Origin: a virus
IMG/VR virus record: IMGVR_UViG_3300034954_001020
Coordinates: 1 to 26,663 of that record
DNA length: 26,663 nt
Reading direction: 5' to 3' (one strand)
Position numbers and translations under genes: made by a program. Within the stretch, counting starts at the first letter, position 1. Every line of letters starts with the position of its first letter. Under the pieces are notes generated by a model that saw nothing but the letters and a program-made list of their open reading frames with translations, was not told the DNA's origin and did not search any database. Of this stretch, positions 4,257 through 26,663 are shown piece by piece.

Positions 4257-4507
4257 CAGTTCTTCTCCTTGTTAACTAATTGTAAAAGTAGACTTTTAAT
4301 GTCCGACACATCAGATTTTAGAGCATTAACTTCACTTTGTAAAGTGTTGAACTGCTCCTTCTTCTTTTGCCTTTCATTATAGGAGGACATATAGTTGTCA
4401 TATATGTCCTGGTCACGGAGGAGGATAGCGTTAGAATCCTTGTCTCGGAAGAGACCCTTATTCTCGTCCCCCTCCACTGGTATGTATTTAGGTACTCCTT
4501 TCTTCAT
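4256..4507 (-). CDS. Small protein with C-terminal coiled coil, function unknown (83 aa)
   Basis: The ATG at 4507-4505 overlaps the TGA of the giant upstream gene (ATGA, 4-nt overlap), so translation is probably coupled to it. Residues 1-35 contain a compact segment (KYIPVEGDENKGLFRDKDSN) of the sort seen in short conserved cyanophage proteins. Residues about 45-80 show a regular heptad pattern (FNTLQSEVNALKSDVSDIKS) and probably form a coiled coil. There are no cysteines, membrane segments or enzyme motifs. The next gene begins at its stop codon. I cannot assign a function. A structural connector, or a chaperone for the long neighbouring proteins, would fit the location. Confidence 0.77.
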   Translation of the reverse strand: MKKGVPKYIPVEGDENKGLFRDKDSNAILLRDQDIYDNYMSSYNERQKKKEQFNTLQSEVNALKSDVSDIKSLLLQLVNKEKN

Positions 4508-10500: not shown

Positions 10501-11940
10501 GTCGATGATGCTCTGAGAAGATGCAAAGTTCAGAGCAGTGAACATCTGGATATCGAAGAGGAAGCAGTTATACTTATTGCCATCCTTTTCGAGTTGAAGG
10601 ACTCTTGCCTTACCAATCAGATTACCTTTAATAGTGTTAGAAGGACCAGTTCCCAACCAGTCATCTCTAAGGTCAACAGTCTGATAGCACTCAGTTACGT
10701 TCTCACCAGAGATACGAGGCCATCCCCAAACATCATATACTTCTACTGCCTGAGACAGGTCAACAGGAACGATTTGGTTCTGACGACCAACAAAGGTACG
10801 AGGTTTCGGAGTGTCCACATAAGTAGGTGCCAGAATTTGTGTTCTGTAACCTTTTACATATGCTTTACCAGGTCCAACTTCAATAGCAGCGAAGTTCTCG
10901 GATGCAACTTGTCCCTCAGGAGAGATTTGACCAGGGGTATATACACCATTGTTGAAGTTATCGTTCAGGTGCTCTCTGGCACGTACGTCGAACGTATCGA
11001 CAACATAGTCACCATGCGTTTCGTACGTTCTACGAGCAATCGACTTCTCGATCTCGTTATATTCCGTACGGTCAACAAAGTTCTCAACAGTCGAGTTCCT
11101 GATGCGAAGCAGTTCGATGAAGTTCTTATCGGTTTCATCGTTGATTGGCTTTTTAACAAGTTGAGTCTTGATTCTGAATCGGTGAGCACCAGGTGCAGAG
11201 TAGTTGGACGCACCAATGGCATTATCCGTAAGTGACGGATCATCCTCTGGTGTAATAATTGATTCGCTAACTTCAAATCCAACTCTGTAACTTGGGTTGT
11301 TCGTATATTGGTCAAGGATGATATATTCAGAAGGAATATCAACGAAGTGTCCACGGATGAAGTACACACCTTCACTGATGTATGCAGTAGAACCAACCTG
11401 TGCAGCGTCTACTGGCAGCATCTGAGCAAACGGAGAACCAGTTTCGATCAGGGTGTTACCAAAGGTAATTTCCTGTTCAGCAACCAACTGTTCGTTGTTT
11501 TGGAATCTCTTAGTTGTAGTGCTAGATGTAGTGTCCCCAGATTCTACATACTTCACATAGAAAGTGATGTAACCACGATCACTTTGAGTAGCAGGAATAG
11601 TATAAAGAACCTTTGCCTTAATACCTGTGGTCAGACCTTCAATGATCTTACCTTCAAGTTGAGTTCTATAAGTTTCAACGTCTACACCCAGGAATGCCTG
11701 CTGAATCAGAATACAATCAACGTTCAGGTCATAACCCACCTGACCAGGGATGACCATCGCACCCTCTTTGAAGAGGTGCTGACCCATTGCTTCGATCTGA
11801 TTCTGCAAGATCGATTGCATAGTCGTAAGTTCCCTTGCTTGGATTGGGAATCCAGGGCGGAAGAGAACTCTGTAAAAGTTTTTATCCTTATCGAAATCGT
11901 CGAAGTAAGGAGAAATGTTTAGGTTAGTATTCTGGGGCAT
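4504..11940 (-). CDS. Giant DUF4815-type baseplate/tail structural protein (2,478 aa)
   Basis: The N-terminus (FDKDKNFYRVLFRPG, QARELTTMQSILQNQIE, KEGAMVIPGQVGYD) is typical of DUF4815 phage proteins. At about nt 8360-8465 it has the conserved helix YTMEDIGNMDRRLQSLEYYT. Around residues 1330-1420 (nt 7690-7950) is an unusually Arg/Thr/Trp-rich stretch, followed by KPKTRMYAFFDN. Near residue 1670 is the conserved module WWDPLAQSF, then VDIFFGTKD, IRPMENGYP and VWISRMGDIDITG. At least four GxTSGAxAxV-type modules lie near nt 10480, 9240, 7260 and 6070. The C-terminus (LYYRTQKPGSEK, FQAFQIKIVMKS) is beta-rich. It has no signal peptide or membrane segment. It starts 4 nt after the gp8 stop and overlaps the next gene by 4 nt. 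It is probably a peripheral baseplate or short-fibre component; the exact role is unknown. Confidence 0.9.
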   Translation of the reverse strand: MPQNTNLNISPYFDDFDKDKNFYRVLFRPGFPIQARELTTMQSILQNQIEAMGQHLFKEGAMVIPGQVGYDLNVDCILIQQAFLGVDVETYRTQLEGKIIEGLTTGIKAKVLYTIPATQSDRGYITFYVKYVESGDTTSSTTTKRFQNNEQLVAEQEITFGNTLIETGSPFAQMLPVDAAQVGSTAYISEGVYFIRGHFVDIPSEYIILDQYTNNPSYRVGFEVSESIITPEDDPSLTDNAIGASNYSAPGAHRFRIKTQLVKKPINDETDKNFIELLRIRNSTVENFVDRTEYNEIEKSIARRTYETHGDYVVDTFDVRAREHLNDNFNNGVYTPGQISPEGQVASENFAAIEVGPGKAYVKGYRTQILAPTYVDTPKPRTFVGRQNQIVPVDLSQAVEVYDVWGWPRISGENVTECYQTVDLRDDWLGTGPSNTIKGNLIGKARVLQLEKDGNKYNCFLFDIQMFTALNFASSQSIIDGELLVGRSSGARGYVYSAAADYAMVHQVSGQFQQGEVIERDGRVLDVLNSVYAYERSDVRQLVGYESSSNATPIFTASLALTESLTLIGKTITVDQASGQDITGFDTEFSADLRAGDVISPTATDKKGSTSLRIKRIDPANVAYTANNRKNTGLTPVFDFGSQEAKLDTSLTKGSVTDAEYPATQVTRLRPYFTEKLNRDGELAIDMPKRAIKSVADESFITIKTFANKPLSSGDVTFTLPENEQFTTLDGENYNLTITVGANDNTGYGWAVGTNLDIENESEKQNPTIGVSFGANRQSLQVTGLNDGSGGTVNNISQVTLTAAVSVNTVSKKIKTAAKMRTMKVIRTRNQNDVINYGLAYGNLYGTRIEDEELSFALNDVYALHAVFESADDDDAKVPYITLTENVYFDPGSVVIGRTSNARARVVSFNAANNRLYVVPVSTEFFNTGETIDGFDDDLNALVGVVDDGENALETGSKNITQDYYLDTNTTSYYYSVSKLVRKAGTSEPKRKLAVVFDYFIHEASGDYFTNQSYTGINFSEIPRVRGDRNSQYLTDTLDFRPAVGELASGSGTVEQPFFTNCKSLDFDSRVFTSAGGAGGSTIFNIPKVEEQIRLDYEYYLPRQDKLFMAHDGDLKLSKGVPAEDPPEADDIDNAMLLAKIQYEPYVYDVEEDILITLHQQRRYTMEDIGNMDRRLQSLEYYTSLSLLESDARNLKAFDSDGFDRLKNGFLVDDFTDHSSSDVENQDFKCSMDFTEGILRPSHYTTNVALQYSTSLSSNLVWWRQNPALGGKIGGNVLTLPYEEDPIIVQPYASRMENVNPFNVFTFIGRIDLLPASDDWTDTRRVPARVTTIEGNFRATRERLGTNNRGFAPVQWRAWRTTWTGQRRTGTRTWRETSFARGVPRRVLQGQTITTTRRQVRSGTRLRVVPRIDRRSLGDSVIDSTFIPWIRSRNVGFDVERVKPKTRMYAFFDNDNIANYIIPKLIEIVKNSSEDSSTNETPFVIGETVYGVQSGCRFRVAAPNDGLTTDPYSATNDPLPDSYASQTGILNIDTEVLSATVNPNFYGNFAVGEVLIGATSGARAVVKDRRLVSDLVGIIRGAFWIPNPANDANPRWATGSRVFRLSSSETDSRLPGAVDSAAEAEYTARGTLNTLQENILAVRNAAVVRDTVTQRRTVRSVRTNTRQVGWWDPLAQSFLLEEQGGTFVTGVDIFFGTKDQKIPISMQIRPMENGYPTKDILPFSDVTLKPSEVEVSDNASISTRFNFPAPVYIPESEEHCFVLFSDSNEYKVWISRMGDIDITGTRTISEQPYAGVLFKSQNASTWTADQYEDLKFNLYRAVFNKNVIGNATFVNAELGSGNDGISSLTVNPVLTIEPKQTLTLPTGNSYNFTIGARVIQTPSNAEATIEEFDSTSNPQTLTVKGIVGTFEQGFLDGNGNPFQSLKSSQSLVTFTLSAAPANGTPAAGDTFVGATSGATGTITSYDPAVGTYGTIIANYVDKAFDSSTEQLNIAGGSIQVSGYSAVAYSGDSYTAYPAVTPTTRSVDKKVVMIHPNHGMHNRSNNVEITGVVSEMPPTESTQTLSSTATQIGVSNAGSFHKIVNGRPISTTNPGYVRITSDVFAMPMPVGALPGTDGGTEAWTDISKFAPDEIIAYSAISDDGQTITVAPSGRGVGGTAAQEWATGAKVECYNLDGIPLTEINKVHSGIQDPTLDSYAIVTQSVANVGIRTGGHKVQATKNIPFELITPTIQIMQFKETGVVPSLNTTSGTSIGSGSTITDQASFVNNGAYDEIQINEENYYDNPRIICSQLNEDNKLEGSKSLTMKINMNTSVDNLSPIIDLDRVSVITTSNRINAWAGGPQVLGLQSEINPQGDVSTLPYGDQNDAVYLTRVARLANVSRSIRVMISMQRYGDSNIDLYYRTQKPGSEKQINDIGFVKIPVPEIGSTNVGEEEWEDFEYVVEGEEFQAFQIKIVMKSKNQAKVPLIKDMRAIAFAS

Positions 11941-11944
11941 CTCG

Positions 11945-13480
11945 TTAGAACTCGATTACGATTTTGATATCTTCAATTTGGTCACCAGCACGACTGATCG
12001 CGCCTCTATTATCTATATAGATGATCTCGCCAGAGTTCGGTTCGATCTCTGACTTAGCATAACCATTGGTGAACGACATACCAAGATCGTACTCAGTGTT
12101 GTTGATAACACGAGTAGAAATACCCGACACAACAGGGAAGTTGATGTCTGGGTCTGCCGATGTACCTGAGGTAGAACCTGTTACAGGGTTACCACCTTCA
12201 AACTCTGTGAGGTTACCAGTAATCTCAGGGAACACACCGTCAATTCTGTTCTGATAGTATTTCAGAACTTTGGTAATGTTATTCCAAGAGATAACTCGAC
12301 CACGAGCAGTTACCTGCTGACCACCAACCGTTCTAGACTGGGTAATAATCTCATCAGTCTGGAACTGACCAGTAAAGGTTGGAGAGAAGATAACAGCTTT
12401 TGTAGCAGACAGAGTAACAGCGGATGTAAGTTCTGTCGTGCCATACTGATTCGGGTTGATCACAAGACCAATACGACGGTAGTCGTTATCAGTCGGGAAG
12501 TCACCTGATCCTTCATCGTAGGTAAACTTCGTGTTGATCATCACACGATAACCGCCCAGTTCTTTGGCGGGGTTTGAACCATGACCAGTGTCGGGAGGAA
12601 TGATAACGTCAATGGCAGCACCAGTACCTGTACCAGCACCAATACCGTTGACCTCATCAATAACAACCTTACCGAAAGTATATCCAGAACCACCAGAGGT
12701 CACTGTGGCGTTTACAATTTTACCACCGTCAACCACCAGAGAAACACGACCACCAACGCCGTCGCCCTTGATAGGTACGTTCTCATAAGTACCGTTGTTA
12801 TAACCAGTACCAGATGCTTGGATCACAACACTGTCAATCTCACCACCAACGGCATCACCAGTCACAGCAACATCGCTGAGCACAGGCATGTAGTCGTTGG
12901 AGAAGAATTTCAGAACTTGTCCAACAGGAATCGTATACAGATACTTCCAGCGGTAACCATCAGCAGTTGTGATAATTGAAGTGGAGGTGCCAGTAGGCTC
13001 AACAGTAGAAGGTTTGCCGTTAGGATCAGAAGGACTTGTCCCGTTGTAGATGCACTTATAAACCTGATACTGCGAGTTAACGACGTAGAAGTCCGCGTCG
13101 TAGAGTTTCGTAGCACCAGACGATGCTGTTTTGGTCGAAGAATAGTCATGGCGATACATATCATAAACGTAACCCAGACCACCAGTGGTCTGTTCTGGGG
13201 GAGTCCAGTCAATACGACGAATAACTTGAATTGTGTCGCTAGCAAGCACACGCTTCAAGGAAATCATATCGGAGAATGTATCCGAGAACTCTTGGAACGA
13301 ATCCACAGGAGTCGGGGGAGCATTCTCGTTATCCCACTCTTGGGGACGACCGATGAAGACATAGAGTCTGTCACGGGACGAACCTGCAACTAGGTCAGAC
13401 TGCGTGGGATCGGCACCCTCTAACGACTTAATAAATCGCTTCGCAGTAAAAATTCTAAATTGATCTGTTAGAAGTGCCAT
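11945..13480 (-). CDS. gp8: Baseplate wedge subunit gp8 (T4-like), enlarged
   Basis: Homology to T4 gp8 is visible by eye at matching positions: YVFIGRPQEWDNENAPPTPV (T4 has a FGRSEPW element), DGYRWKYLYTIP at 174-185 (T4 DGYVWEYLFEIP), YRRIGLVINP at 334-343 (T4 FRQISIITNP), and a C-terminus GEIIYIDNRGA..DQIEDIKI at 484-507 (T4 GEMIYMENRPP..DQTEEINI). In T4, gp8 is a dimeric wedge protein linking gp7, gp6 and gp10. This protein is 511 residues against 334 in T4. The excess sits in two blocks: residues about 203-305, with GTGY and GGSGY glycine repeats, and residues about 350-475, with a TARGRVISW module. A promoter-like box and an AGGAAGG Shine-Dalgarno precede it. Confidence 0.9.
   Translation of the reverse strand: MALLTDQFRIFTAKRFIKSLEGADPTQSDLVAGSSRDRLYVFIGRPQEWDNENAPPTPVDSFQEFSDTFSDMISLKRVLASDTIQVIRRIDWTPPEQTTGGLGYVYDMYRHDYSSTKTASSGATKLYDADFYVVNSQYQVYKCIYNGTSPSDPNGKPSTVEPTGTSTSIITTADGYRWKYLYTIPVGQVLKFFSNDYMPVLSDVAVTGDAVGGEIDSVVIQASGTGYNNGTYENVPIKGDGVGGRVSLVVDGGKIVNATVTSGGSGYTFGKVVIDEVNGIGAGTGTGAAIDVIIPPDTGHGSNPAKELGGYRVMINTKFTYDEGSGDFPTDNDYRRIGLVINPNQYGTTELTSAVTLSATKAVIFSPTFTGQFQTDEIITQSRTVGGQQVTARGRVISWNNITKVLKYYQNRIDGVFPEITGNLTEFEGGNPVTGSTSGTSADPDINFPVVSGISTRVINNTEYDLGMSFTNGYAKSEIEPNSGEIIYIDNRGAISRAGDQIEDIKIVIEF
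12581..12874 (-). repeat. Glycine-rich GxGY insertion inside gp8
   Basis: This codes for residues about 203-300 of gp8 and has no counterpart in T4 gp8. It contains QASGTGYNNG, KGDGVGGRVSLVV, TSGGSGYTFG and GAGTGTGAAIDV. The pattern (GxGY, a short strand, GGxGGxA, a strand) is the same as the repeats in the gene just upstream at 14628-15293. Confidence 0.75.
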
Positions 13481-13514: not shown

Positions 13515-15362
13515 TTATTCTGGTTCAGTTCTGACCAGGTTAGTATATTCTTGTCTGTTGAACACAGAGGTAGCACCAGATGTCTGCCCAGACAGAGTAT
13601 CTGAGGTAGTAAACTTGTAGGTGTTACCATTATTTGTAATGCTGCTGAGTTCTAATATCCGATATCCGAAAGCATCAGCGGTCTGATTAAACGAAACAAC
13701 CGTTGCCGTAACACCTGTGCTGCTACCAGTAACAGTTTCACCGATTTGATATGGAGTATCATTCCAGGTCTGTACTTTGACAGCAGTAGTAGATGTGTGA
13801 TCAACACCATCACCCAGAGCACCAGCAGTATTGATAGTGGCAGTCAAAGGAACAAGGTTGGAGTCATAAATCTGATCACCTTGCTGGAACAGTGTAGTGT
13901 TCTGTCCACCAACAGTCTCTTCAATACCATACAGAGATGATGCAATACCACCATCAAGGTTGATCTCATCTTCAAAGTCTGTATCAGTATTTACCAGATC
14001 AATGATACCGTCGCCAGCACCATCAACTTCATCATCATCTTCAAATACAAATCCTTCTAAGGTTCCGATAGGATCAGTAAAGGTAATAATGCTTCCTTCG
14101 GGATCTTCCAACAGAACGTGCGGATTGACACCTGTACCAGAAGATGCAGCAGAACCTGCAATGAACTGAATAACAGCAGTCTTCTCGTTAGATCTACCAC
14201 CGTCAATGAATGCCAATTCATCAACTTCAAATGTAAGGAATAGTTCCTTAGTGTCAGGACGCCAGTCATAAACAATAGCAACCTTGTTGGACTTATCCTC
14301 TTGTACTCTTCTAACACGGTCTGCGACAGTGAAAGAGTAACCAGAGATGCCAGTATTAGGATCAGTTGCCAGGTTATCAAGGATCACACGCTGGTCATAA
14401 CGGAAGTTAATACCTCTATCACAACCAGTGAAAGAGATAGGTGTCTTACCCGTATATCTAATAATCTCTCTGCCGATCTGGAACTTACCAGAACCAGGGA
14501 AAGCGTTAGTAGTTTCTACATACAGAGTTGTGTCAGCAGGTGCAGCGTCTCTAATCAACGCTGTCATATTGAAGAATGAGGACACCAGAGAGGTTCTATT
14601 TCTCTGTGTTCTGATCAGGTTGGTATCACGAGTGAAGATAACATTAGGTGCAGATGTATATCCACCACCAGGGTTCAACAGTGTGATGTTTGAGATACGA
14701 CCCAAGTTGATCTCTGCCTTTGCTTCGGCACCAGATCCACCACCACCAATAATTTGTAGGATAGGAGGAGTTTCAAAGAACTCACCTTCTGATGTAACTC
14801 TAATGTTTTCGACAACACCGAACTGATTAACTTCGGCAACACCACTAGCACCAGATCCACCACCACCAGAAATAACAATAGTAATATCTTCGGAAGTATA
14901 GTTTCTACCGTTGTTCTCAACAGACAAACCAGTCACACCACCAGTAACAGGGACTAGTTCTGCACCAGATCCACCACCACCTCTTAGGTATGCCTCAGCA
15001 TTAAAATATCCATCACCAGGTTGATTAACCTGCAAGAAACTAACAGATCCATCGGGATTCAAATAGATGTTAGCGTCTGCATCAACGATACCTTCATCAT
15101 TACTAACAATATCCAAACGGAGAGGATCATAACCCTCACCAGGGTCAATCACATCAACAGACAGGATCTCACCATTGTCTGCAATGTTTGCTCTTAAAAC
15201 AGCATCCCTGATAGGAGTACCACAGTTGCCAATAGACAACTTCGGTGGATCGTTAGGGTCATACCCACTACCACCATTAGTTACGATAACGTCCTTAACT
15301 CCGTAGACAGAGTTAAAGACGGGTTCGATAGATGCACCTGATCCAGGGACTGTTCTTGGCAT
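13515..15362 (-). CDS. Glycine-repeat virion structural protein (615 aa)
   Basis: The start overlaps the stop of the gp10-like gene by one base (TAATG), implying coupled translation. Residues 24-245 are repeats of the form GxGYxxxP followed by a strand and GGGGSGAxAxAxV: for example TNGGSGYDPND, DPGEGYDP, QPGDGYF, GGGGSGAELVPV, GGGGSGASGVAEV and NPGGGYTSAP. Residues about 274-327 hold a known phage-structural pattern (TTLYVETTNAFPGSGKF, IGREIIRYTG, SFTGCDRG). Residues about 438-470 are very acidic. The C-terminus carries two TSGA-type modules (GSSTGVTATVVSF and SGQTSGATSVF). I see no enzyme motif, signal peptide or membrane helix. Lying between the gp10-like gene and gp8, it is most likely a baseplate wedge or peripheral protein, but I cannot match it to a named T4 protein. 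Confidence 0.87.
   Translation of the reverse strand: MPRTVPGSGASIEPVFNSVYGVKDVIVTNGGSGYDPNDPPKLSIGNCGTPIRDAVLRANIADNGEILSVDVIDPGEGYDPLRLDIVSNDEGIVDADANIYLNPDGSVSFLQVNQPGDGYFNAEAYLRGGGGSGAELVPVTGGVTGLSVENNGRNYTSEDITIVISGGGGSGASGVAEVNQFGVVENIRVTSEGEFFETPPILQIIGGGGSGAEAKAEINLGRISNITLLNPGGGYTSAPNVIFTRDTNLIRTQRNRTSLVSSFFNMTALIRDAAPADTTLYVETTNAFPGSGKFQIGREIIRYTGKTPISFTGCDRGINFRYDQRVILDNLATDPNTGISGYSFTVADRVRRVQEDKSNKVAIVYDWRPDTKELFLTFEVDELAFIDGGRSNEKTAVIQFIAGSAASSGTGVNPHVLLEDPEGSIITFTDPIGTLEGFVFEDDDEVDGAGDGIIDLVNTDTDFEDEINLDGGIASSLYGIEETVGGQNTTLFQQGDQIYDSNLVPLTATINTAGALGDGVDHTSTTAVKVQTWNDTPYQIGETVTGSSTGVTATVVSFNQTADAFGYRILELSSITNNGNTYKFTTSDTLSGQTSGATSVFNRQEYTNLVRTEPE
14628..15293 (-). repeat. GxGY / GGGGSGA repeat array in the 615-aa protein
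   Basis: About six degenerate protein-level repeats of roughly 35-45 residues each contain a GxGY turn, mostly with hydrophobic strands, and three copies of GGGGSGA (near 14968, 14858 and 14738). The three GGGGSGA segments are similar at DNA level too (repeated ccaccaccacc and gcaccagatcc on the plus strand). Confidence 0.75.
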
Positions 15363-16868: not shown

Positions 16869-16876
16869 TATTTATG
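16869..16876 (-). promoter_or_regulatory. Late-promoter-like box (CATAAATA) before the gp10-like gene
   Basis: Read on the minus strand this is CATAAATA followed by G, one mismatch from TATAAATA. It lies 22 nt before the ATG at 16846 and contains the TAA stop (16874-16872) of the YHYH gene, so stop codon and promoter box share bases. Confidence 0.6.
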
Positions 16877-18476
16877 TTGCGTCAAACGAGATAGATGTAG
16901 TATCGAACTTAGTATCCGTAGATGAGAAGTCCGCATCTCCTTGACCATCACCAATACCCGTTACAGTCAATGTCACCACGTCCGACATTAGCGGTGAGTT
17001 TGTTGCGGGAGTAACGCCCAGTCCAAGAGGACCACGCACCTCACATCTGAACTTATATCCAGACATGTAATTCAATGCAGTGAATTCATATGTGCTATTA
17101 GTAGCACCAGTCAACACTGCAAACGAGAATCCACCATCAGTAGATCTGAACCACTGATATGCCTTAGGTCCATCCTCAGGACTGATAGTTGCAGAAATAC
17201 TAAACGTAACAGTTTGACCAACGTTATGTGTGGCATTCTGCGGTTGATTAGTAATCTGGATAGTTGCAGGGGCAACAGTACCACCACCACCTTGATCAGG
17301 AGGAGGAGGTGTAGCAGCACCATTATTAGGTGGTTGATTTAGTACCTCACGAGATGTCAAACCAACCAGGTATGGGAACACTGGAAGTAGGTTCTGCTCA
17401 CTATCTAATTCAGTAGAAAGGAAGTAAGCATATGTACCATCTTGGAACTCAGGTGTGACACAAAAACGTCCATTATGGTAGTCGAGGTTACCAAGACCCT
17501 CAGCATACTCCCAGTCCGCCATCAGAGCGCCTGCTGGGGGGTTCTGCTGACTATCTCCATAGGATGGTCTATTCTCTGCTTCTTCTGATTTAACTCTGTA
17601 TGAACTAGTTGCAAGACCAATATCACTATCGTTGTTCCAAGGATCGGTATACATGTATGGTCCGTATACAGGGAACCCATCAAAAGCATAACCAAGAATC
17701 TTAGAGTGACCATCTGGATGTCTCAGGTTGTCACCGTTGTACTGAGATGCTCCATAGTAATCGTTATATGATGCCATCACAGAATCTGCTTTCCAGCAAC
17801 CAAGAAACTCAGTGTCATGATAGTGATACTGACCAGTTACTTCTGGATGACCACCACAATTATCATCACCAAAGTTTACTGGCGACCCTTCAAAATGTGC
17901 ATTCCATTGGAATCCAGTCGGAGGATTTCCTCCTGCTCCTGCACTGGGATTGAAAAATACAACGCCATTAGCAGCAACCCCAATAGCGCCCAACGGTGTT
18001 TCGGACCTTCCATTACGTTGATCATAATATTCGTACGTGCCGTTATAACCTGATCTTTGGAAATCCATAATCAGTTCTAGATACTGATCACTTGCTCTCC
18101 AAAACTCACCAGCAGTGGCAGTCTGCTCAGTGCCTTTATATACAAATACTTGCTTCCTTTCGTTGACAGTATTCTCATCGAATACAAACAAGATTCTGTC
18201 ACCAACTCTGATAGCAGAACCTAGAAGAGTATTGTCAGCAACCGATAATGGAATCTGAATAAAGAACCCATCATGGACAAAGGTGTTAGCATCAAACGTC
18301 CTAGTGACGCCAAAAGTCCCACCCCTGTAATAAAAAGTATGTTCAAAATCCTGCTCAGTTACCTGGTTAGGATTATTGGCATTGGGAAAAGTACCATACA
18401 GTACGGGGTTTGGAAGTCCATCCCCGTCCACTGTAAGGTTTCTAGTACCAGCGTTATATTCAGCGGTTGCTGTCAT
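16872..18476 (-). CDS. YHYH-domain protein with C-terminal Ig-like domain (534 aa)
   Basis: Residues about 60-360 show the hallmarks of the bacterial YHYH family: LGAIGVAANGVVFFNP (162-177), DDNCGGHPEVTGQYHYH (204-220, giving the family its name), Cys227, and GHSKILGYAFDGFPVYGPY (256-274), with Cys339 further on. The family is common in marine bacteria and its biochemical role is unknown; the conserved His and Cys residues suggest metal binding. A Pro/Gly linker (381-403) leads to an Ig-like domain at about 405-508 (QPQNATHNVGQTVTFS, AYQWFRSTDG, YKFRCEV), like the one ending the neighbouring giant protein. There is no signal peptide, as expected for a virion part. The ATG is only 13 nt after an AATAAATA box and has no Shine-Dalgarno. 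The location in the baseplate operon implies a structural or host-surface-binding role. Confidence 0.9.
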   Translation of the reverse strand: MTATAEYNAGTRNLTVDGDGLPNPVLYGTFPNANNPNQVTEQDFEHTFYYRGGTFGVTRTFDANTFVHDGFFIQIPLSVADNTLLGSAIRVGDRILFVFDENTVNERKQVFVYKGTEQTATAGEFWRASDQYLELIMDFQRSGYNGTYEYYDQRNGRSETPLGAIGVAANGVVFFNPSAGAGGNPPTGFQWNAHFEGSPVNFGDDNCGGHPEVTGQYHYHDTEFLGCWKADSVMASYNDYYGASQYNGDNLRHPDGHSKILGYAFDGFPVYGPYMYTDPWNNDSDIGLATSSYRVKSEEAENRPSYGDSQQNPPAGALMADWEYAEGLGNLDYHNGRFCVTPEFQDGTYAYFLSTELDSEQNLLPVFPYLVGLTSREVLNQPPNNGAATPPPPDQGGGGTVAPATIQITNQPQNATHNVGQTVTFSISATISPEDGPKAYQWFRSTDGGFSFAVLTGATNSTYEFTALNYMSGYKFRCEVRGPLGLGVTPATNSPLMSDVVTLTVTGIGDGQGDADFSSTDTKFDTTSISFDAT

Positions 18477-18489
18477 TGCACTTTTTGAC

Positions 18490-18497
18490 TATTTATT
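18490..18497 (-). promoter_or_regulatory. Late-promoter-like box (AATAAATA) before the YHYH gene
   Basis: Read on the minus strand this is AATAAATA followed by G. It contains the TAA stop (18495-18493) of the giant upstream gene. Its end is only 13 nt from the YHYH ATG, so a transcript from it would have a leader of under about 10 nt. Confidence 0.55.
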
Positions 18498-21400
18498 GGA
18501 AGATCTGAGTCGGGTTGAAGTTGGTGACGATAGTAGCACCAGTCTGAACTGTGAGGATCACAGAGTTGGAGTAGACAGGTGTAGCACCAGCAGCAGTGAC
18601 TGCGACACGGAATTCATCACCATCATCTGCCTGTTCAGCAGCGTTAGATGTGTAAACCGAGAGTGTGGAACCAGTGATGTTGTTCCAATCAGTTTCACCG
18701 TATTGCTTGCGCTGCCACTGATAGTTCAGTGCAGTTGTTCCAACTTGATTGTCAGAACTGTTAACGAACTGAGCGATGATAGTGAACTGTGCAGTCTGGT
18801 CTTGGTTCACGGTCACGTTCACAGGTTGTGAAACGATGTTGATGTAACCAGGTGTAATAACGATCGGGTTACCCTGAGCGTCAGTACCCTCACCAGCGTA
18901 GGTATCGAAACCTTGGTTGACAGCAGGTCCAGTAGGAACAACGAAGTCGTCATCAACGGTAGTCTCGACAGTAACTGCGGGTTGTGCGTAACCAATACCA
19001 GGAGTCTTCACGTCGATTCTCATCAGACCCATCAGAGCGCGGACACGACCGTCGAAACCAGTCGAGGAAACCACGTCCACGTTCGGGCGTGAGGTGTAAC
19101 CATCACCAGGTGCGGTAATGATTGCCTTGGTGATCTCACCAGACTTGATGTCAGCAAGTGCCTCAGCGTTACGACCCTTGACGGTTCCTGTGTACTCGAA
19201 GGTAATCAAGGAGTTTGAGGATTCGATCAGAGCGACTTCACGAGGATCTGCCTCACCTTCGATTTGCAGGATGTCACCAGCCTCAATCGGAGGTACGACA
19301 GTCGCCGCGATCACGTCAGCATCAGAACCGATGTAGGAGAAGGCAACGAACGTAGATCCTGCGCGAGGAATCTCAGCGAAGATGATTCTAGAACCAACCA
19401 GTTCATAACCAACACCAGGTTCCTGAATCACACCATTGAGCGAGACGATGATGTTGTTCTCAGGCAGGATAGTGTTGGACGACACACCTTCTGTCAGAGT
19501 CAGGGAGTAGAAACCACCCTGATACTTCAAGTTGAAGGAGGAACGCAGAGAGTCAAACTCGAAACTGATGTCATCGAGTTGTCTCAGTTTACCCACGTAG
19601 TAACCAATGAATTCGGAACCAATGGTGGGAGGTTCAGTAAACTGGATCTGGTCAGAGAACGCAGTGTAGGCGTAGTTTGCACCAGGAGGTTGCAGCACAC
19701 CGTTGACGAACACGAGCAGGTGTCCAGCGGGATCTGGGAAGTAAGACTCGCCGTTGTTGACAGTGAGTTTGAAGGAATCAGCAGTGCCGTCGAATCCACG
19801 GAAGAAGCGATCACAACGTCCGAGAAGACCCTTAGATTGAGATACAGCAGCGTACCAACCGTAGTCAGATCTGATAGTGAGGTTGCTGGGGAAGTCGCCA
19901 TTTACATCTTCCAACCAGATGCGACCAGTGTTACCACTGATTGCTTTACCTGCGACCTTACCGTATGAGGTGTAGTTGGTAACAGTCTGACCGATGATGT
20001 CACAAGAGATAATCGGGAAGTTGTTGAGGTTCTCAAATCTACCAAGTCCAGTACCACCTGCGAGCAGCTCAGCGGGGTCAACAGTTGTAGATCCGTCAGC
20101 ACCAGCGCCATAGGGTTGCAGGTTTGCAATCCAGATCTTGTGGATGCCATTGTCAGGATCATAGACGTAATCCGTAACCATAGCAGTCCAACCAGGGATC
20201 TTAGGTACAGAACCCGACAGGAGATAAACTAGATCACCAGCAGAGAAGTCACCTTCAAAACCTTGGTCTCTCAGGACATTATTAACATCACACTCGACAA
20301 CCTGGGTCGCGTGTACGAACTGGTTGAGTTCGATATCTTGGAATCCGACCTTAGTGATGTTACCGATATCAAGGATCTTATCAGTGATAGAACCGTAAAT
20401 GATGTCGCCATCAATGAAGTTATCTTGCAGAGTTTCAATGTCAATCGTAATACGACCACCCAGGTTGCTAGTCAAGGAACCAGCAGAGTTTTCGTAGGAA
20501 ACGATGGTTGCCTCAGCGCCATTACCTTTGTTGAAGATAATCTCACCGTTAGCGAATGCACCGCGATCGATGTTGATCAACATACGATCAGTTCCTGTGC
20601 CAACCAGTTCTGCGGTTTCACCACTATCAACACCTTCCAGAACCTGAGTGGCACTGAACGAACCAGTGATATTCTCTACATAAATCCAACCTTCATCGGA
20701 GTTATCACCCGTGAGGGTAGAGGTTTGAAGGACGATACCGTAGTTAGAACCAGCACCTTGAACTTGGACTCTTTCACCAACAGTGAATCTGCCCGTAGCA
20801 ACTCTGATCTCATATCTGCGGTACATCTTGACGATTTCCGCTTCGTTGTTTCTAGTTCTGACAATCTCAGAAGAAGCGTTAGATGTAGTACCAACAACCA
20901 CGTCAGCAAGGTTGAAACCACCACTGATGGGGTTATCAACGTCTCTGGTGCCATATGTAGTTGCCTTACGATGGATGCCAGAGCGTACAGGAGATGACAG
21001 TTGCTGAGCACCAGTCAGTCTGGTGTCAACTGCGAATCTTCTAAATCTAGCGTCATGACGAATCTCAGTTGTAACTTCAAACTGTGAAGGAGTTGCATTC
21101 AACACATAGTAATAAGGTTGCGATCCGAATGCAGACTCAACGTCACCAGATGCAATCGCGTAAGAAAGAACATCACCACGGGAGTAGAAGTTAGGACGCT
21201 GGATGATAATCCTATGCTCTCTGTTCTCAAATCCAACTTCAACAGTCGGAGTGTTAATGATCAGGTCAGGATCAGTGTTCCAGTCAGTACCTTCGTCAAA
21301 CAGGTTACGTTGGTTAGTGGCATGAACGTTGTTAGTCCACTGAACGCTGTTTTGTGCAGGAGGTGTACCTCTGCTGATAGCGAAGTATGCAGCATTGAGA

Positions 21401-24400
21401 GAACTATCAATCTTGAACTGAGTAGACTCTTTCTCATATTCAAAGCGGTTATCAATCGCACCCGTACCAAAGTGGGTCTCATCTTGATATATGTCATATC
21501 CGAAGAACTCACCACCCACGAGCACGTCATTGTAATCATCAAGAATACGCTTGGCGTACTCACTGACTCTGGTCACATACCAGAGCAAGTGTTGCTTGGT
21601 AACATCAGGGAATGCGATGAAGTTGCCCTCACCATCAAACCAGGTGTTGACGAGTCTCAGGATACCAACGTTACCGCCAGTGTTCAGGTCATACAGCAGA
21701 CCCTTGACCAGTTCCTCACCGAAAGCGAGGTCGGCAGTTGTAGTCGGATATGCAGTTTGTACCTCAGCAAATGCCTTGCCTGCGACAACATGACTGTTGA
21801 ACAGGATACGTCTAGCAGCAGTCTTATCGGACTTACTACCACCACCCAACGATTCGCTCATGAGATCAAACAGAGTCTCAGAGGCAGACGTTACGTTGTA
21901 GCAAGTGTAATACTGATATGCAGCGTTGCTGTTGTAACCAGTGTTGCGGGTAACAGTAGTGAGGTGACTTGGGGCAGGAGATCCAGAGGCAGCAACAGTG
22001 ATGGTGTTAAGAACAATATCGAAGAGAGATTCGATGTTAGTTGCCTGTGTCTGACAAGTCTGATTCCATTCGCTACCACCTTCGTAGGTAACAGTAACGT
22101 CACGCTCAACCATCTCAGGAGAATACTTGACAGGCCAGATGTATGGCATTGTCTTAGTAATAGTCCCGTCAGTAATATCAGTAGGTGTAGTGATTGTATC
22201 GGTTACGATTGTCATCAGCGTAGTGATGGCATCAGCAACGTTGACGCACTTGGGATTAGCAGTATCCGCAGTGATGCTATAACCACCATCGCTATATGGA
22301 GGATAATCCAGATCAGCGTAGAACTTCTGAGTGTAACCATGACCAGCGGTGACAGTAATAGTCTCACCTCTCATGGATTGGATTGCAAGATCTCTTGCTT
22401 TCTCCAAGATCCAGATAGACTCAGTAGAAACACCTACGATGTGTGCCAGGTTAGATCCAGAGACATACAGTTCAGATGCCATGAACACCTTGTTGTTACC
22501 ACCGTATTTGAGGTTCCAAACCATCGCTTGGAGAACGTCGGTAACGTCATGGACACAATCAATATAACCGTTAGTGGTGATAGCGTTTTGCTCAGCACTT
22601 ACGAAGGTGTGTGCGTACTGGAATTCAGCAGCAGCAACACCGACGTTAACGGTCAGTGTGTTTGCATCAACAACTGTGACTGCCAAGGAAGAACCCCATG
22701 CAGGGTCACTGGCGCGAGGATAAGAATGCTCAGTAGCATTAGAGTCCTGTGTGCAAGTGAAAGTCAGAGAACCAGGTCTGATGGTAATTCTGTTACCAGT
22801 AGACAGTCCATGATTTGGGGTTGTGTCGATAGTCAGCAGACCACTAGTGTGGTTGTAAGTGACGTTACTAGGAGTCAACTCAACACCACCAGATCCACTC
22901 TGACCATTGATGTTCAGTGAGGGGAACTGTGCTCTACCCTGAGCGACTGCTTCCTCAGCAATGAAGCGGATGTTTCTGTCGATGATATTTGCAGCATCGA
23001 TAAACCTGTCAGCAACAGCGTTTCTCTCATAGGTTTGAACGTCAACCTGTTCAATGGACTCACCGCCACTCAGAGGTTCACCAGTTACAGGATCAACACC
23101 ACCGCCTTCGGGATCATAGATGTAAAGGTTATCACGACCGAAACCATTACGGATTGTCAGAATGCAGATCTCAGCAGCGATCTTCATAGTATCGAGAGCA
23201 GCATCGAGTTCAGCCTCAACGTGCTTCAAGCTGCTATCCTCAGGATTCAGATAGAGATTTGCAGCATCCCATGTGCGAGAGTTACCACCAAATCTGAGGT
23301 CATGGATCACAGCATCGATAACATCCATAACGTCATCAACGCAGTTCTGAGCACCGCCAGGGATTGCCAAGTCAAGATACTTGGACATTCCGTTCATTGT
23401 GTAGACTGCTTCCTTAGCAATTACATGCTTGTTTCTTTCAAGCATATCGGCAGCATCAAGGTTCTTAGTGATATCAGAACTACTACCAGACTCATAACCT
23501 TTGGTGTCGATAGTAATTGTGTCATCTCTATATGCTGGAACCTGAGTGTATTGAGCAACATAATAATCATCTTGATACTCAGGCGACACACCAATACCAG
23601 CAGCAGTAGTACCGAAGGACAGGAGAGTGTTATTGATAGCGTGATGTACTAACTTCTTAGTGTAGTCAAATGCATCCAGCATAGGACCAAGTTCATTCTC
23701 AATGTGGATGATCTGAGAGTTAGGATCGATATACTGATCAATTACATACTGAGTAGCAGAGTTACCACCAGTGATCAAGTCAGTGATGACAGCAGGCAGG
23801 ATGTGCTGTTTAAGGTCACGGAGGCAGTAAGGTTCACCATAACCAGGCATGACGAGTTTGTCATACACATTGCCGTTAATATCCTTAATATATGTTGCTT
23901 GCAACCAACCGACAACTTCTTCTGAGATGTAATCGCGGTTCTTCCAGATAGCATCGCCACCATCACGGAATCTGTCACCAGTAGGTCCGATGATATCTGC
24001 AATGGTGTTACAGAGATCAGTAATCTCATTAGTTACCAGAGAAGATGCAGGAGAAGTAAAGTTATTAGGAATACGAAGCAGTTCAGTGTACTTAGTACCG
24101 TTGAAGGTTTCGAGGTCAGCACTGGTAGTAGTGATAACGAAGTTAATAACGTTGGCAAGTTCTGTCCAGGTGTAGATAGATTGGAGCAGTTCATTGCCCA
24201 CATAGTTCAGTCCACCTTCCTTAGTCAGGTAACCTCTACCAGCGATAACGCTGTTGTAGTTACCACCATAACGAATGTCCTCTACAACTGCTTTCAGGAT
24301 GTACTCTTTGGTGTCACGCAGACACTTGTTAGTACCCTGTTGTACGCCAACACCATCAGCACTGTCGCCAGGAATGATGAAGTCAGAATACTTCTCCTTC

Positions 24401-26663
24401 ATCAGACCAACAGCAACCTCAGAGATCCAATCGTAGTTCAGTTCGATAAGATCAGCACATCTACGATGCTCGTCACGAGAAAGGTTGATGTCCTCAATGA
24501 TGAACTGCTTATTATCGTAGTCAACACTCTTAGCGGTAGCAGTAGAGTTGGTTTGACCAGTGTAAACACCATAACGCTCACGATCGCTCAGGATGAACGG
24601 CAGTTCCATGCTCATACCGAACGAGATGTTGTTCGTAGAGGTAGGATATGTGAAACCAGGTGTGAAGGTAGCAGTGTAGTCAGAGACTCCCTTCTTGAAG
24701 ATGATATTATCAACCCAACCAACAAAGTTGTTAGATCCAGCGTAGTCAGAACCAATCTTGAATGCACGCTCCAAGTAGTTGTTGTTGTCAGTGTAGTCAC
24801 CACCAACTTGTGTGCCATTGACCCACAGTTTAGTGATGTTAGTAGTTCTGGTAACAGCAACGTGATGCCAGGAGTTTGTACCCAGGTTATGAGCAGCAGA
24901 GATTTGATCAGAACCGTTATACCACCAGTTGATAGTAGAACCATTCAAATACAGAGCAGGAGATCCTGTCTCAGTAGATCCACTAGTGCGGCAATCCCAG
25001 AGGAACTGCACACCACTCAGAGTGGTAGGACGGATCCACATTTCGATGGTGAAGTCACCAGTCTCAAACTTCTGTACATCAGAGATCGGAGAAGAAATAT
25101 AACCACCAGCATCAATTCTCAGTGACTTGGTGCCAGATTTCTTTTGAAGACCAGTCAGAACTGCATTGTTAGCAGTCAGTACACTGTTGGTAATATACTC
25201 TCTGTCTTGCAGAGTTCCAGTGATAGAGTCAGTGAACAACCATTTCAGACCAGAGTTAGTGCCCTTCGCCTCAAAAGATGCACCAGAAGTTACACCTCTG
25301 ATAGTGTCACCAGGTGTGAAGAATCCAGTGGCACCAGGATCCTTGTAGGATACCTTGAACACACGGAGGTTCTCATTCTCTTGGTAAGATCCATCTGAGA
25401 TAACAGGGAGTGCGTTGATAGTAGCGAGACTACCAGAAGCGATAGTAGTTGCTGCCAATTCAACCAGGGTATGAATGCCTGCCTGAACGTCAGCACAGTT
25501 ACCAATGCTCTCGTTTCTACCAGAGTAGTAGTTAGGATCGTAGTATGCAGCAGCAGTGCCACCACCAGTGAATACAGCGTTAGATTCTGCATCAATGAAG
25601 GTATGTGCATAACCACCACCAGAGGAGATAGCGTTATTAGTAGCACTTACAAAGGTGTGTACATACTGATCACCAGCACCAGAAGCACCAACGTTTACCG
25701 TGATGGTATTTGAGGTGACCGAGGAGATAGAGAGGTATGCACCATTTGCAGGGTCACTAGCACGAGGATATGTGTGGTTTGAACCATTGTCGTCCTGTGT
25801 GCAAGTGAAGGTCAAACTATCTTGTGCGATAGTGATGCTGTCACCGATGCTCAACGAGTGAGTACCGATAGTCAGTACCATTACACCAGTTGCGGGGTCA
25901 TATGTAGCGCCAGTAGGTGTAAACTGTACCAGTGCAGATGCGCCAACGTTGACCTGAATAGTTGTTGCAGTTACTGCGGCAATAGGTAGGTCAGTATTGA
26001 AAGCAGGATCCCCAGTACGAGGATAAGAGTGGAAAGAAGCATCTCCGTCAGAAGCACATGTGAAGCGCAAAGCATAGGGCCTAATGCGTACGCTGTCACT
26101 AGTTGTGAGGGTATGAGAACCGATGGTCAGGGTCATCAGACCACTGGACGGAACATAGGCCGCGGCGGATACATCAAACTCTTCAAGTTCGGTAGTTCCA
26201 GCAGCAGAACCAAGATACGGACCAGCATAAGTGGTCGGATCATTGAGCATGTAACCAGTCTCAGAAGTTCTGGTGTTGACCTGAACATAGAGAAGGTTGT
26301 TGATTGCCTTACGGCACATCTCACCTGCTTTTCTGAAAGCAGTGATAGATTCTGCAAGTTCTCCAACCAGACCATTGGTGATAGGAACACCAGCATTGTC
26401 GAAGTATTTTCTAGCGAACTCAACAGTCTGGTAGTTACCGTCTCCTGCAATATCCAAAGCAAGAGCATCAACCATCAGACCAATGTCACGACGGCACTTC
26501 GCTTCGTTAGCACTGTATGCAGTAGGTTCTGTAAGATCAATCAGATCGTTCAGTGAACCTGCAAGCAGAACCTCAGATACGTTGTCAAACAGAGTTTGCA
26601 GCGCAGATTGTACGTCAGAGCAGTTATTGGTTCCATAGTTCTGAGTGTTAGAACCAGGGGTGC
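18493..26663 (-). CDS. Giant modular virion protein with LamG-like and Ig-like domains (partial, 5' end outside window)
   Basis: The ATG at 26475 is internal: the frame stays open to the window edge, and the upstream codons (NNCSDVQSALQTLFDN, DLTEPTAYSANEAKCRRDIG) match motifs repeated inside the protein. At least 2,723 residues are visible. Parts in order: a helical CRRD motif (26500); two beta modules with HxYPRxxDPA (25640-26150); a LamG/concanavalin-like domain (24640-25130: FTIEMWIRP, SWHHVAVTR, KLWVNGTQVGG); about five helical modules of ~110 residues ending in DLxxGGN (21635-24480), with a third HxYPR module at 22590-22870; TSGA-type modules (20590-20910); two NGVxQxPG modules (19330-19800); GxGY repeats (18980-19130); and an Ig-like domain (18520-18840). 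No enzyme motif is visible. It is probably a peripheral baseplate or fibre plate with carbohydrate-binding potential. I cannot equate it to a T4 gene. Confidence 0.88.
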   Translation of the reverse strand, partial: TPGSNTQNYGTNNCSDVQSALQTLFDNVSEVLLAGSLNDLIDLTEPTAYSANEAKCRRDIGLMVDALALDIAGDGNYQTVEFARKYFDNAGVPITNGLVGELAESITAFRKAGEMCRKAINNLLYVQVNTRTSETGYMLNDPTTYAGPYLGSAAGTTELEEFDVSAAAYVPSSGLMTLTIGSHTLTTSDSVRIRPYALRFTCASDGDASFHSYPRTGDPAFNTDLPIAAVTATTIQVNVGASALVQFTPTGATYDPATGVMVLTIGTHSLSIGDSITIAQDSLTFTCTQDDNGSNHTYPRASDPANGAYLSISSVTSNTITVNVGASGAGDQYVHTFVSATNNAISSGGGYAHTFIDAESNAVFTGGGTAAAYYDPNYYSGRNESIGNCADVQAGIHTLVELAATTIASGSLATINALPVISDGSYQENENLRVFKVSYKDPGATGFFTPGDTIRGVTSGASFEAKGTNSGLKWLFTDSITGTLQDREYITNSVLTANNAVLTGLQKKSGTKSLRIDAGGYISSPISDVQKFETGDFTIEMWIRPTTLSGVQFLWDCRTSGSTETGSPALYLNGSTINWWYNGSDQISAAHNLGTNSWHHVAVTRTTNITKLWVNGTQVGGDYTDNNNYLERAFKIGSDYAGSNNFVGWVDNIIFKKGVSDYTATFTPGFTYPTSTNNISFGMSMELPFILSDRERYGVYTGQTNSTATAKSVDYDNKQFIIEDINLSRDEHRRCADLIELNYDWISEVAVGLMKEKYSDFIIPGDSADGVGVQQGTNKCLRDTKEYILKAVVEDIRYGGNYNSVIAGRGYLTKEGGLNYVGNELLQSIYTWTELANVINFVITTTSADLETFNGTKYTELLRIPNNFTSPASSLVTNEITDLCNTIADIIGPTGDRFRDGGDAIWKNRDYISEEVVGWLQATYIKDINGNVYDKLVMPGYGEPYCLRDLKQHILPAVITDLITGGNSATQYVIDQYIDPNSQIIHIENELGPMLDAFDYTKKLVHHAINNTLLSFGTTAAGIGVSPEYQDDYYVAQYTQVPAYRDDTITIDTKGYESGSSSDITKNLDAADMLERNKHVIAKEAVYTMNGMSKYLDLAIPGGAQNCVDDVMDVIDAVIHDLRFGGNSRTWDAANLYLNPEDSSLKHVEAELDAALDTMKIAAEICILTIRNGFGRDNLYIYDPEGGGVDPVTGEPLSGGESIEQVDVQTYERNAVADRFIDAANIIDRNIRFIAEEAVAQGRAQFPSLNINGQSGSGGVELTPSNVTYNHTSGLLTIDTTPNHGLSTGNRITIRPGSLTFTCTQDSNATEHSYPRASDPAWGSSLAVTVVDANTLTVNVGVAAAEFQYAHTFVSAEQNAITTNGYIDCVHDVTDVLQAMVWNLKYGGNNKVFMASELYVSGSNLAHIVGVSTESIWILEKARDLAIQSMRGETITVTAGHGYTQKFYADLDYPPYSDGGYSITADTANPKCVNVADAITTLMTIVTDTITTPTDITDGTITKTMPYIWPVKYSPEMVERDVTVTYEGGSEWNQTCQTQATNIESLFDIVLNTITVAASGSPAPSHLTTVTRNTGYNSNAAYQYYTCYNVTSASETLFDLMSESLGGGSKSDKTAARRILFNSHVVAGKAFAEVQTAYPTTTADLAFGEELVKGLLYDLNTGGNVGILRLVNTWFDGEGNFIAFPDVTKQHLLWYVTRVSEYAKRILDDYNDVLVGGEFFGYDIYQDETHFGTGAIDNRFEYEKESTQFKIDSSLNAAYFAISRGTPPAQNSVQWTNNVHATNQRNLFDEGTDWNTDPDLIINTPTVEVGFENREHRIIIQRPNFYSRGDVLSYAIASGDVESAFGSQPYYYVLNATPSQFEVTTEIRHDARFRRFAVDTRLTGAQQLSSPVRSGIHRKATTYGTRDVDNPISGGFNLADVVVGTTSNASSEIVRTRNNEAEIVKMYRRYEIRVATGRFTVGERVQVQGAGSNYGIVLQTSTLTGDNSDEGWIYVENITGSFSATQVLEGVDSGETAELVGTGTDRMLINIDRGAFANGEIIFNKGNGAEATIVSYENSAGSLTSNLGGRITIDIETLQDNFIDGDIIYGSITDKILDIGNITKVGFQDIELNQFVHATQVVECDVNNVLRDQGFEGDFSAGDLVYLLSGSVPKIPGWTAMVTDYVYDPDNGIHKIWIANLQPYGAGADGSTTVDPAELLAGGTGLGRFENLNNFPIISCDIIGQTVTNYTSYGKVAGKAISGNTGRIWLEDVNGDFPSNLTIRSDYGWYAAVSQSKGLLGRCDRFFRGFDGTADSFKLTVNNGESYFPDPAGHLLVFVNGVLQPPGANYAYTAFSDQIQFTEPPTIGSEFIGYYVGKLRQLDDISFEFDSLRSSFNLKYQGGFYSLTLTEGVSSNTILPENNIIVSLNGVIQEPGVGYELVGSRIIFAEIPRAGSTFVAFSYIGSDADVIAATVVPPIEAGDILQIEGEADPREVALIESSNSLITFEYTGTVKGRNAEALADIKSGEITKAIITAPGDGYTSRPNVDVVSSTGFDGRVRALMGLMRIDVKTPGIGYAQPAVTVETTVDDDFVVPTGPAVNQGFDTYAGEGTDAQGNPIVITPGYINIVSQPVNVTVNQDQTAQFTIIAQFVNSSDNQVGTTALNYQWQRKQYGETDWNNITGSTLSVYTSNAAEQADDGDEFRVAVTAAGATPVYSNSVILTVQTGATIVTNFNPTQIFQ
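21635..24480 (-). repeat. Helical DLxxGGN repeat modules in the giant protein
   Basis: About five related units follow the pattern: a helix with N...I..EAV, then (often) IPG, then C..D....(V/I)..AV..DL..GGN, then A..Y. Clear GGN ends are VVEDIRYGGN (~24265), VITDLITGGN (~23770), VIHDLRFGGN (~23290), MVWNLKYGGN (~22500) and LLYDLNTGGN (~21680). A more distant copy lies at ~26430 (DALALDIAGDGN). Divergence between copies is high, so the array is old. Confidence 0.78.
22590..22870 (-). repeat. HxYPRxxDPA beta module, third copy
   Basis: This unit encodes SGLLTIDTTPNHGL, SLTFTCTQD, EHSYPRASDPA, TLTVNVG and YAHTFVSAEQNAI. It matches the module at 25640-25920, including a near-identical DNA stretch around CTCCTGT/GTCCTGTGTGCAAGTGAA, though it lies about 3 kb further along the gene. 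Confidence 0.8.
25640..26150 (-). repeat. HxYPRxxDPA beta modules, first and second copies in tandem
   Basis: Two adjoining ~75-95 residue units share this pattern: G.MTLTIGSHTL, a D.(V/I).I strand, LxFTCxxD, H(S/T)YPRxxDPA, and IxVNVGAS. The first has HSYPRTGDPA (~26015) and the second HTYPRASDPA (~25765). The second ends with YVHTFVSATNNAI, also found after the third copy. Confidence 0.8.

Follow-up and report, generated by a model that had tools for sequence, protein, structure and literature searches.

The virus record IMGVR_UViG_3300034954_001020, analysed here over its whole length of 26,663 bases (the window), appears to be part of the genome of a T4-like cyanomyovirus that infects marine cyanobacteria (Kyanoviridae, near S-WAM1); its nearest isolate is Synechococcus phage S-WAM1, and S-SZBM1, P-RSM6 and P-TIM40 come next. 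The gene under study encodes a protein of 534 amino acids in which a YHYH domain is joined through a Pro/Gly linker to an immunoglobulin-like (Ig-like) domain, and lies within a set of baseplate genes (Table 1). A preliminary description, made from the letters of the window and its open reading frames, had recognized these three parts, and they hold up, the YHYH domain through its match to PF14240 and the Ig-like domain through the orthologs; the coordinates that it gave for the reading frame are exact, and the strand, which it had left unsaid, is the minus strand. The motifs that it quoted, as well as C207, H210, H218, H220 and C227, are found at the places assigned to them.

The match to PF14240 (residues 162–357) reaches 123.5 bits against a cut-off of 25, and the signature of the family is present in the form of an H-x7-H-x-H triad, DG[FY]P, N335 and Y351. 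In addition, phrog_25852 ("virion structural protein") matches the protein over its whole length, and the orthologs carry this same annotation. The YHYH domain is, however, larger than the core quoted in the preliminary description, its first ~50 residues being situated upstream of an inserted domain. Bacterial YHYH domains begin with a P-x-NPN-x-EQ segment, which the Pfam match misses in the 534-residue protein because a domain of ~93 residues (58–150), predicted as beta strands with one short helix at a predicted local distance difference test score (pLDDT) of about 90 or more, has been inserted after it. Copies free of this insert are found as stand-alone genes of 281–288 amino acids (loci L140, L148 and L152) and in ACG-2014d, and in a diverse alignment (A3) the residues G20, P22, P24, R51 and G53 are nearly invariant across the insert-bearing and the insert-free copies.

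The linker that follows the core has the sequence NQPPNNGAATPPPPDQGGGGT. The Ig_3 match of the Ig-like domain is weak in the protein itself (E=0.03, below the cut-off), and among the orthologs Ig_3 is matched by 21 of 28 (E<=0.1, best 1e-4) and Ig_7 likewise by 21/28. The FDxT-type repeats of the C-terminal tail read DFSSTDTKFDTTSISFDAT here and RFDSTxSTFDSTxQTFDGT in relatives, and could form a docking tail. The mean pairwise identity among orthologs is 0.70 in the YHYH core, 0.66 in the Ig domain, 0.53 in the insert and 0.35 in the linker.

At the N-terminus there is no hydrophobic stretch (over 12-residue stretches, the highest mean hydropathy does not exceed 1.16 in any of 78 phage orthologs), in contrast with most of the bacterial YHYH proteins examined, where this value is about 2.1–3.2. 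Judged by this measure, the export by signal peptide that is typical of the bacterial members, although not defining for them, is absent from the 534-residue protein. The preliminary description had seen this difference correctly and had also taken it as a pointer to packaging in the virion; this second step carries little weight by itself, because phage proteins leave the cell by lysis.

Table 1. Features of the YHYH-Ig gene and its neighbours in the window
Feature	Positions	Strand	Basis
YHYH-Ig gene, 534 aa, ATG start	16872..18476	minus	open reading frame; PF14240 E=1.4e-35; phrog_25852 over 1–534
YHYH N-terminal segment, residues 10–57 (DGLPNP...NANNPNQVTEQ...YRGG)	18306..18449	minus	aligns with bacterial YHYH starts and insert-free phage copies; predicted strands 13–18, 44–49
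Inserted ~93-residue mostly beta domain within the YHYH domain, residues 58–150	18027..18305	minus	missing from insert-free copies
YHYH core, residues 151–380	17337..18026	minus	PF14240 162–357; model pLDDT 93.8 (residues 1–385)
His-triad hairpin, residues 207–227 (C207, H210, H218, H220, C227)	17796..17858	minus	triad conservation; strands 209–211, 217–219
Pro/Gly linker, residues 381–402	17271..17336	minus	sequence
Ig-like domain, residues 403–508	16953..17270	minus	Ig_3 and Ig_7 matches among orthologs
C-terminal tail, conserved FDxT-type repeats, residues 509–534	16875..16952	minus	alignment A4
Upstream giant protein, C-terminal 2722 aa in window, Laminin_G_3 and Ig-like C-terminus	18493..26661	minus	
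gp9/10-like baseplate wedge-tail fibre connector, 494 aa	15362..16846	minus	PF07880 E=7.7e-9; phrog_677
615-aa baseplate protein	13515..15362	minus	phrog_708 relative
gp8-like baseplate wedge subunit	11945..13480	minus	PF09215 E=1.4e-17; phrog_438
DUF4815 protein	4504..11940	minus	PF16075 E=4.2e-63; S-WAM1 annotation, baseplate wedge tail fibre connector

The histidine triad and the predicted fold

The structure of residues 1–385 was predicted with AlphaFold2 on an alignment of 77 sequences that included divergent viral relatives (pLDDT 93.8, predicted template modelling score 0.92); an earlier model built from 28 close orthologs, in which the Ig-like region was of low confidence, had a pLDDT of 39.6 and was discarded. 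When the 1–385 model was searched with Foldseek in the PDB, no match reached E<=0.001, and the matches at E>=0.096, which were partial (template modelling scores of 0.06–0.16 by query length), were not interpreted; viral models of the same family matched it at 1.5e-57. A sequence search of the PDB gave no relatives of the protein either. These results suggest that the modelled YHYH fold is one without a clear solved relative in the library searched, in keeping with the state of PF14240 as a family of unknown function that has no sequence or fold match among the solved structures searched.

In the model, H210 lies on strand 209–211, H218 on strand 217–219, and H220 directly after it, that is, all three on one predicted beta-hairpin, where, to go by the limits of the strands, H210 and H218 would stand across from each other and H220 would share that face. 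The conservation of the triad was counted over 169 unique full-length viral YHYH-fold domains, which are related sequences, so that the counts do not amount to a formal test: all three histidines are kept in 112, none in 42, and 15 are partial, when independence with the same marginal frequencies would give 57 domains with all three and 4.6 with none. This pattern of joint loss fits a single functional site that, to judge from the sequences, would be lost as a unit. The replacements take many forms (RRR, KTR, KRR, FTQ, SSR, LVY), and in the bacterial YHYH sequences that cover the site all three are present in 21/21. The set of ligands that a metal-dependent hydrolase requires would thus have its candidates in the three histidines, through their co-conservation, and we consider it quite likely that a metal is bound there.

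The two cysteines, which the preliminary description had added to the three histidines as possible members of one metal site, behave otherwise. In the 112 triad-intact domains both C207 and C227 are present in 95, neither in 16 and only one of them in a single case, and the pair is missing from most bacterial YHYH proteins; because they vary together as a dispensable pair they look, at the level of sequence, like a disulfide rather than core ligands, and were rejected as metal ligands. The histidine part of that proposal gains support from the joint loss and from the common hairpin. As for D266, H257, D332, N335 and Y351, these stay in both the triad-intact and the triad-less classes, so they would be structural or serve something else.

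Small YHYH genes in which all three histidines are replaced (F/T/Q, K/T/R, R/R/R) are also found in other marine phages (L157:2995-3843, L160:2911-3642, L241, L234), and the gene next to them, where it is seen, differs (MAKVITENF... type).

The function of the family had been presented in the preliminary description as unexplored; a prediction had in fact been published, and literature searches on YHYH gave relevant matches limited to phage and diatom papers. Iyer et al. (2021) predicted that the YHYH domains of phages, which are frequently fused to proteins of the tail or the baseplate, are tail-associated zinc hydrolases, and proposed that three histidines and an aspartate bind the zinc, with AOO14285.1 as the example (PMC7824862). 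The domain family, the type of baseplate operon and the reasoning from the His triad are common to that example and the protein of the window. However, AOO14285.1 is the giant of 6198 amino acids of cyanophage S-RIM14, and H-x-H is found neither in its YHYH domain (placed by the core profile at approximately residues 1429–1563 of the open reading frame) nor anywhere across the whole protein. The counterpart of the window gene is the next gene, AOO14286.1, which occupies the same slot and carries an intact GGHPEQNGRYHYH; a third S-RIM14 copy, AOO14288.1 (1184 amino acids), is split and lacks H-x-H. In this way the published example is refined, the intact site being in the small adjoining gene and not in the giant cited. 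The family and the context of the window gene were both known before, and it is not new as a kind; what is added is the inserted domain, a confident model without a counterpart in the PDB, the way in which the triad behaves as a unit, the Cys pair, and which of the baseplate proteins holds the intact site.

Baseplate context and virion association

Along the direction of transcription the order of the genes is the Laminin_G_3 giant, the YHYH-Ig gene, the gp9/10-like connector, the 615-residue baseplate protein, gp8 and the DUF4815 protein, the gaps on both sides of the YHYH-Ig gene being of 16 and 25 bp, as in a tight baseplate operon. This order is conserved in S-WAM1, P-RSM6, P-TIM40, S-SZBM1 and ACG-2014d, and the gene is located inside the gp6–gp8 baseplate cluster, syntenic in the relatives, which is the context of a T4-like baseplate wedge-associated protein; the S-RIM14 counterpart of the giant carries PF23786 (Baseplate_wedge). 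The operon context described beforehand is thereby borne out by the gp9/10-like, gp8-like, DUF4815 and wedge-type giant neighbours.

Orthologs with the same neighbours are S-WAM1 BOW92_gp158 (81% identity), P-RSM6 CPXG_00127 (72%), S-SZBM1 SSZBM1_207 (UNH61324.1; 71.5%) and P-TIM40 AU107_gp100 (61.5%), of 526–534 amino acids, and these four are the isolates, among those searched, that have the YHYH-insert-Ig type at >=80% protein coverage and >=61% identity. No functional description was found for these four orthologs, and virion mass-spectrometry support was found for SSZBM1_207 alone. The latter (532 amino acids), identified as the ortholog from the position and product of its locus tag, was detected in CsCl-purified S-SZBM1 particles with a score of 245 (p=3e-25), by one peptide and with an exponentially modified protein abundance index (emPAI) of 0.12, the third-lowest in the virion table, while the gp8, gp9/10-like, 615-residue and giant neighbours were detected with more peptides (PMC9146016, Table 1). 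It would therefore be a component of the virion that is either scarce or yields few peptides that can be detected. The virion mass spectrometry that the preliminary description had called for thus supports association with the virion, by way of an ortholog. With this, the protein of the window is very probably a virion protein, and its gene context makes it probable that it sits on the baseplate. A head decoration of the Hoc type was rejected on account of this same baseplate context, the Ig match to phrog_4069 being weak (E=0.0024).

Across cyanophages the slot holds YHYH alone, YHYH-insert-Ig-like, or YHYH with a half that resembles a polyhydroxyalkanoate (PHA) depolymerase. The last form is that of ACG-2014d AAJ59_gp072 (587 amino acids; YHYH E=1.4e-40), located in the same slot between the giant and the gp9/10-like gene, which has no insert and, where the protein of the window has the Ig-like domain, has a C-terminal half that matches extracellular polyhydroxyalkanoate depolymerase (NF050058, E=5.7e-6) below the curated cut-off, with GxSxG present. 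Given that the slot elsewhere carries YHYH without Ig, the proposal that the Ig-like domain serves to display the head domain on the particle is no more than a possibility. YHYH with an Ig domain is also found inside larger proteins (S-BM3, L156), and half-YHYH matches occur across cyanomyoviruses in proteins annotated as gp7, wedge initiator or structural protein, so that the YHYH fold appears as a building block of the baseplate, of which the triad-intact copy is typically a small gene.

Because a scan of the genome collection gave mostly phage contigs binned as metagenome-assembled genomes (MAGs), the bacterial relatives come from searching for the family within the phylum to which one Phycisphaera hit belongs. 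These secreted members of PF14240 (planctomycetes) share with the protein of the window all the positions of the His triad, D266, N335 and Y351; unlike it, most have signal peptides and no beta insert, and in most of them the Cys pair and the RHPDGH segment are missing. As a separate observation, the contigs L087-L090, which are filed as Euryarchaeota and Flavobacteriales MAGs, carry the YHYH-Ig phage gene and look like misbinned cyanophage.

Candidate functions

The reading tentatively preferred here, with a confidence somewhat short of even, is that of a minor component of the particle of a T4-like cyanomyovirus, attached to the baseplate and acting as a metal-dependent hydrolase on the envelope of the host. 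The protein would attach to the tail baseplate wedge, beside the gp9/10-like fibre connector and the wedge-type giant; H210, H218 and H220, on their hairpin, would be placed to bind a metal ion; and the Ig-like C-terminus with the tail would provide docking or adhesive parts. Since this group of orthologs retains the triad, and related baseplate copies have lost it without losing the fold, the metal site would have an active role at the cell surface, and the first choice for such a role would be metal-dependent hydrolysis of the cyanobacterial envelope during attachment or entry. The counterpart in ACG-2014d, with its depolymerase-like region, is consistent with this, in so far as the slot would carry hydrolase-type domains, and so are the presence of the triad in all bacterial sequences that cover the site and the independent prediction by Iyer et al. 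(2021). An enzyme, rather than a structural metal site or an adhesin, is a plausible prediction, at odds a little below even.

Several points weigh on the other side: (i) baseplate proteins that lack the triad still have the fold, which makes a purely structural role possible; (ii) D266, which could be the aspartate that the published site includes, occurs in 42/42 triad-less domains and need not be a ligand; (iii) the match to NF050058 falls below its curated cut-off; (iv) as no PDB fold match was obtained at E<=0.001, the structure suggests no class of enzyme; (v) and finally, the virion evidence consists of one peptide, which covers 2.6% of the protein, and comes from a relative that is 71.5% identical.

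The first of these points leads to a baseplate subunit in which the metal bound by the histidines would merely stabilize the fold or an interface, without catalysis. The recurrence of the YHYH fold in the baseplate giants of cyanophages, even without the triad, would agree with it, as would the association of the triad with the gp9/10-like gene, which follows 166/188 testable triad-intact genes and 1/73 triad-less ones, although these loci were not deduplicated and a lineage effect is likely, so that the figures may reflect phage lineage only. Against it, the 42 viral domains that retain the fold without the triad imply that a metal is not needed for folding in general, and all of the secreted bacterial members examined carry the triad; on balance a structural metal is unlikely, if by no means negligible.

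A second possibility, and an improbable one, is that the YHYH and Ig-like domains together form an adhesin that binds a receptor or glycans of the host surface. The adjoining giant has a concanavalin-like Laminin_G_3 domain, and S-SZBM1, S-WAM1, P-RSM6 and P-TIM40 have been reported without long tail fibres or their genes (PMC9146016), so that recognition may fall to the baseplate proteins. Receptor-binding tips usually diversify; here, the YHYH core and the Ig domain are the well conserved parts, and those that vary are the insert and the linker. Finally, that it is an operon protein that co-purifies at a low level, and not a stable part of the virion, as the single peptide and low emPAI beside two well covered flanking genes could suggest, is very improbable in view of the detection score, the embedded and syntenic position that the gene has within the baseplate operon among the related phages examined, and the YHYH domains built into larger structural proteins.

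If the preferred hydrolase is set in an evolutionary frame, a possible but doubtful scenario is that the baseplates of cyanophages have been partly built from a captured secreted metalloprotein, whose copies in the giant wedge proteins would have lost the metal site and passed to scaffolding, while the gene of the window would remain as the envelope enzyme of the baseplate with a working site. If true, this would concern a fold that has no solved representative. In any case, metal binding and activity become directly testable, since this group of orthologs offers a small protein with the triad intact, relatives that lack the triad by nature and can serve as controls, and a model of high confidence.

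Neighbouring genes

The upstream giant runs past the edge of the window and belongs to a group of giants of ~6600–8600 amino acids with a Laminin_G_3 domain and an Ig-like C-terminus, of which that of S-WAM1 measures 6737 amino acids and that of P-RSM6 about 8570. In the gp9/10-like neighbour, the C-terminus (15362–15640, minus strand; GHPLELR...YVYQCNIHGNMVGNIVVV) resembles the type-1 copper motif of cupredoxins (His, Cys-x2-His-x2-Met), and Y.C..H..M is present in 98/149 complete gp9/10-like reading frames of the fetched loci; the assignment to the cupredoxins, which has neither a Pfam nor a PDB sequence match, was rejected. At the other end of the window (2–3961, minus strand) lies a long repetitive structural protein with many repeats of the VDGNTTIGN/TLxVDG type (phrog_697), which is probably tail fibre-like.
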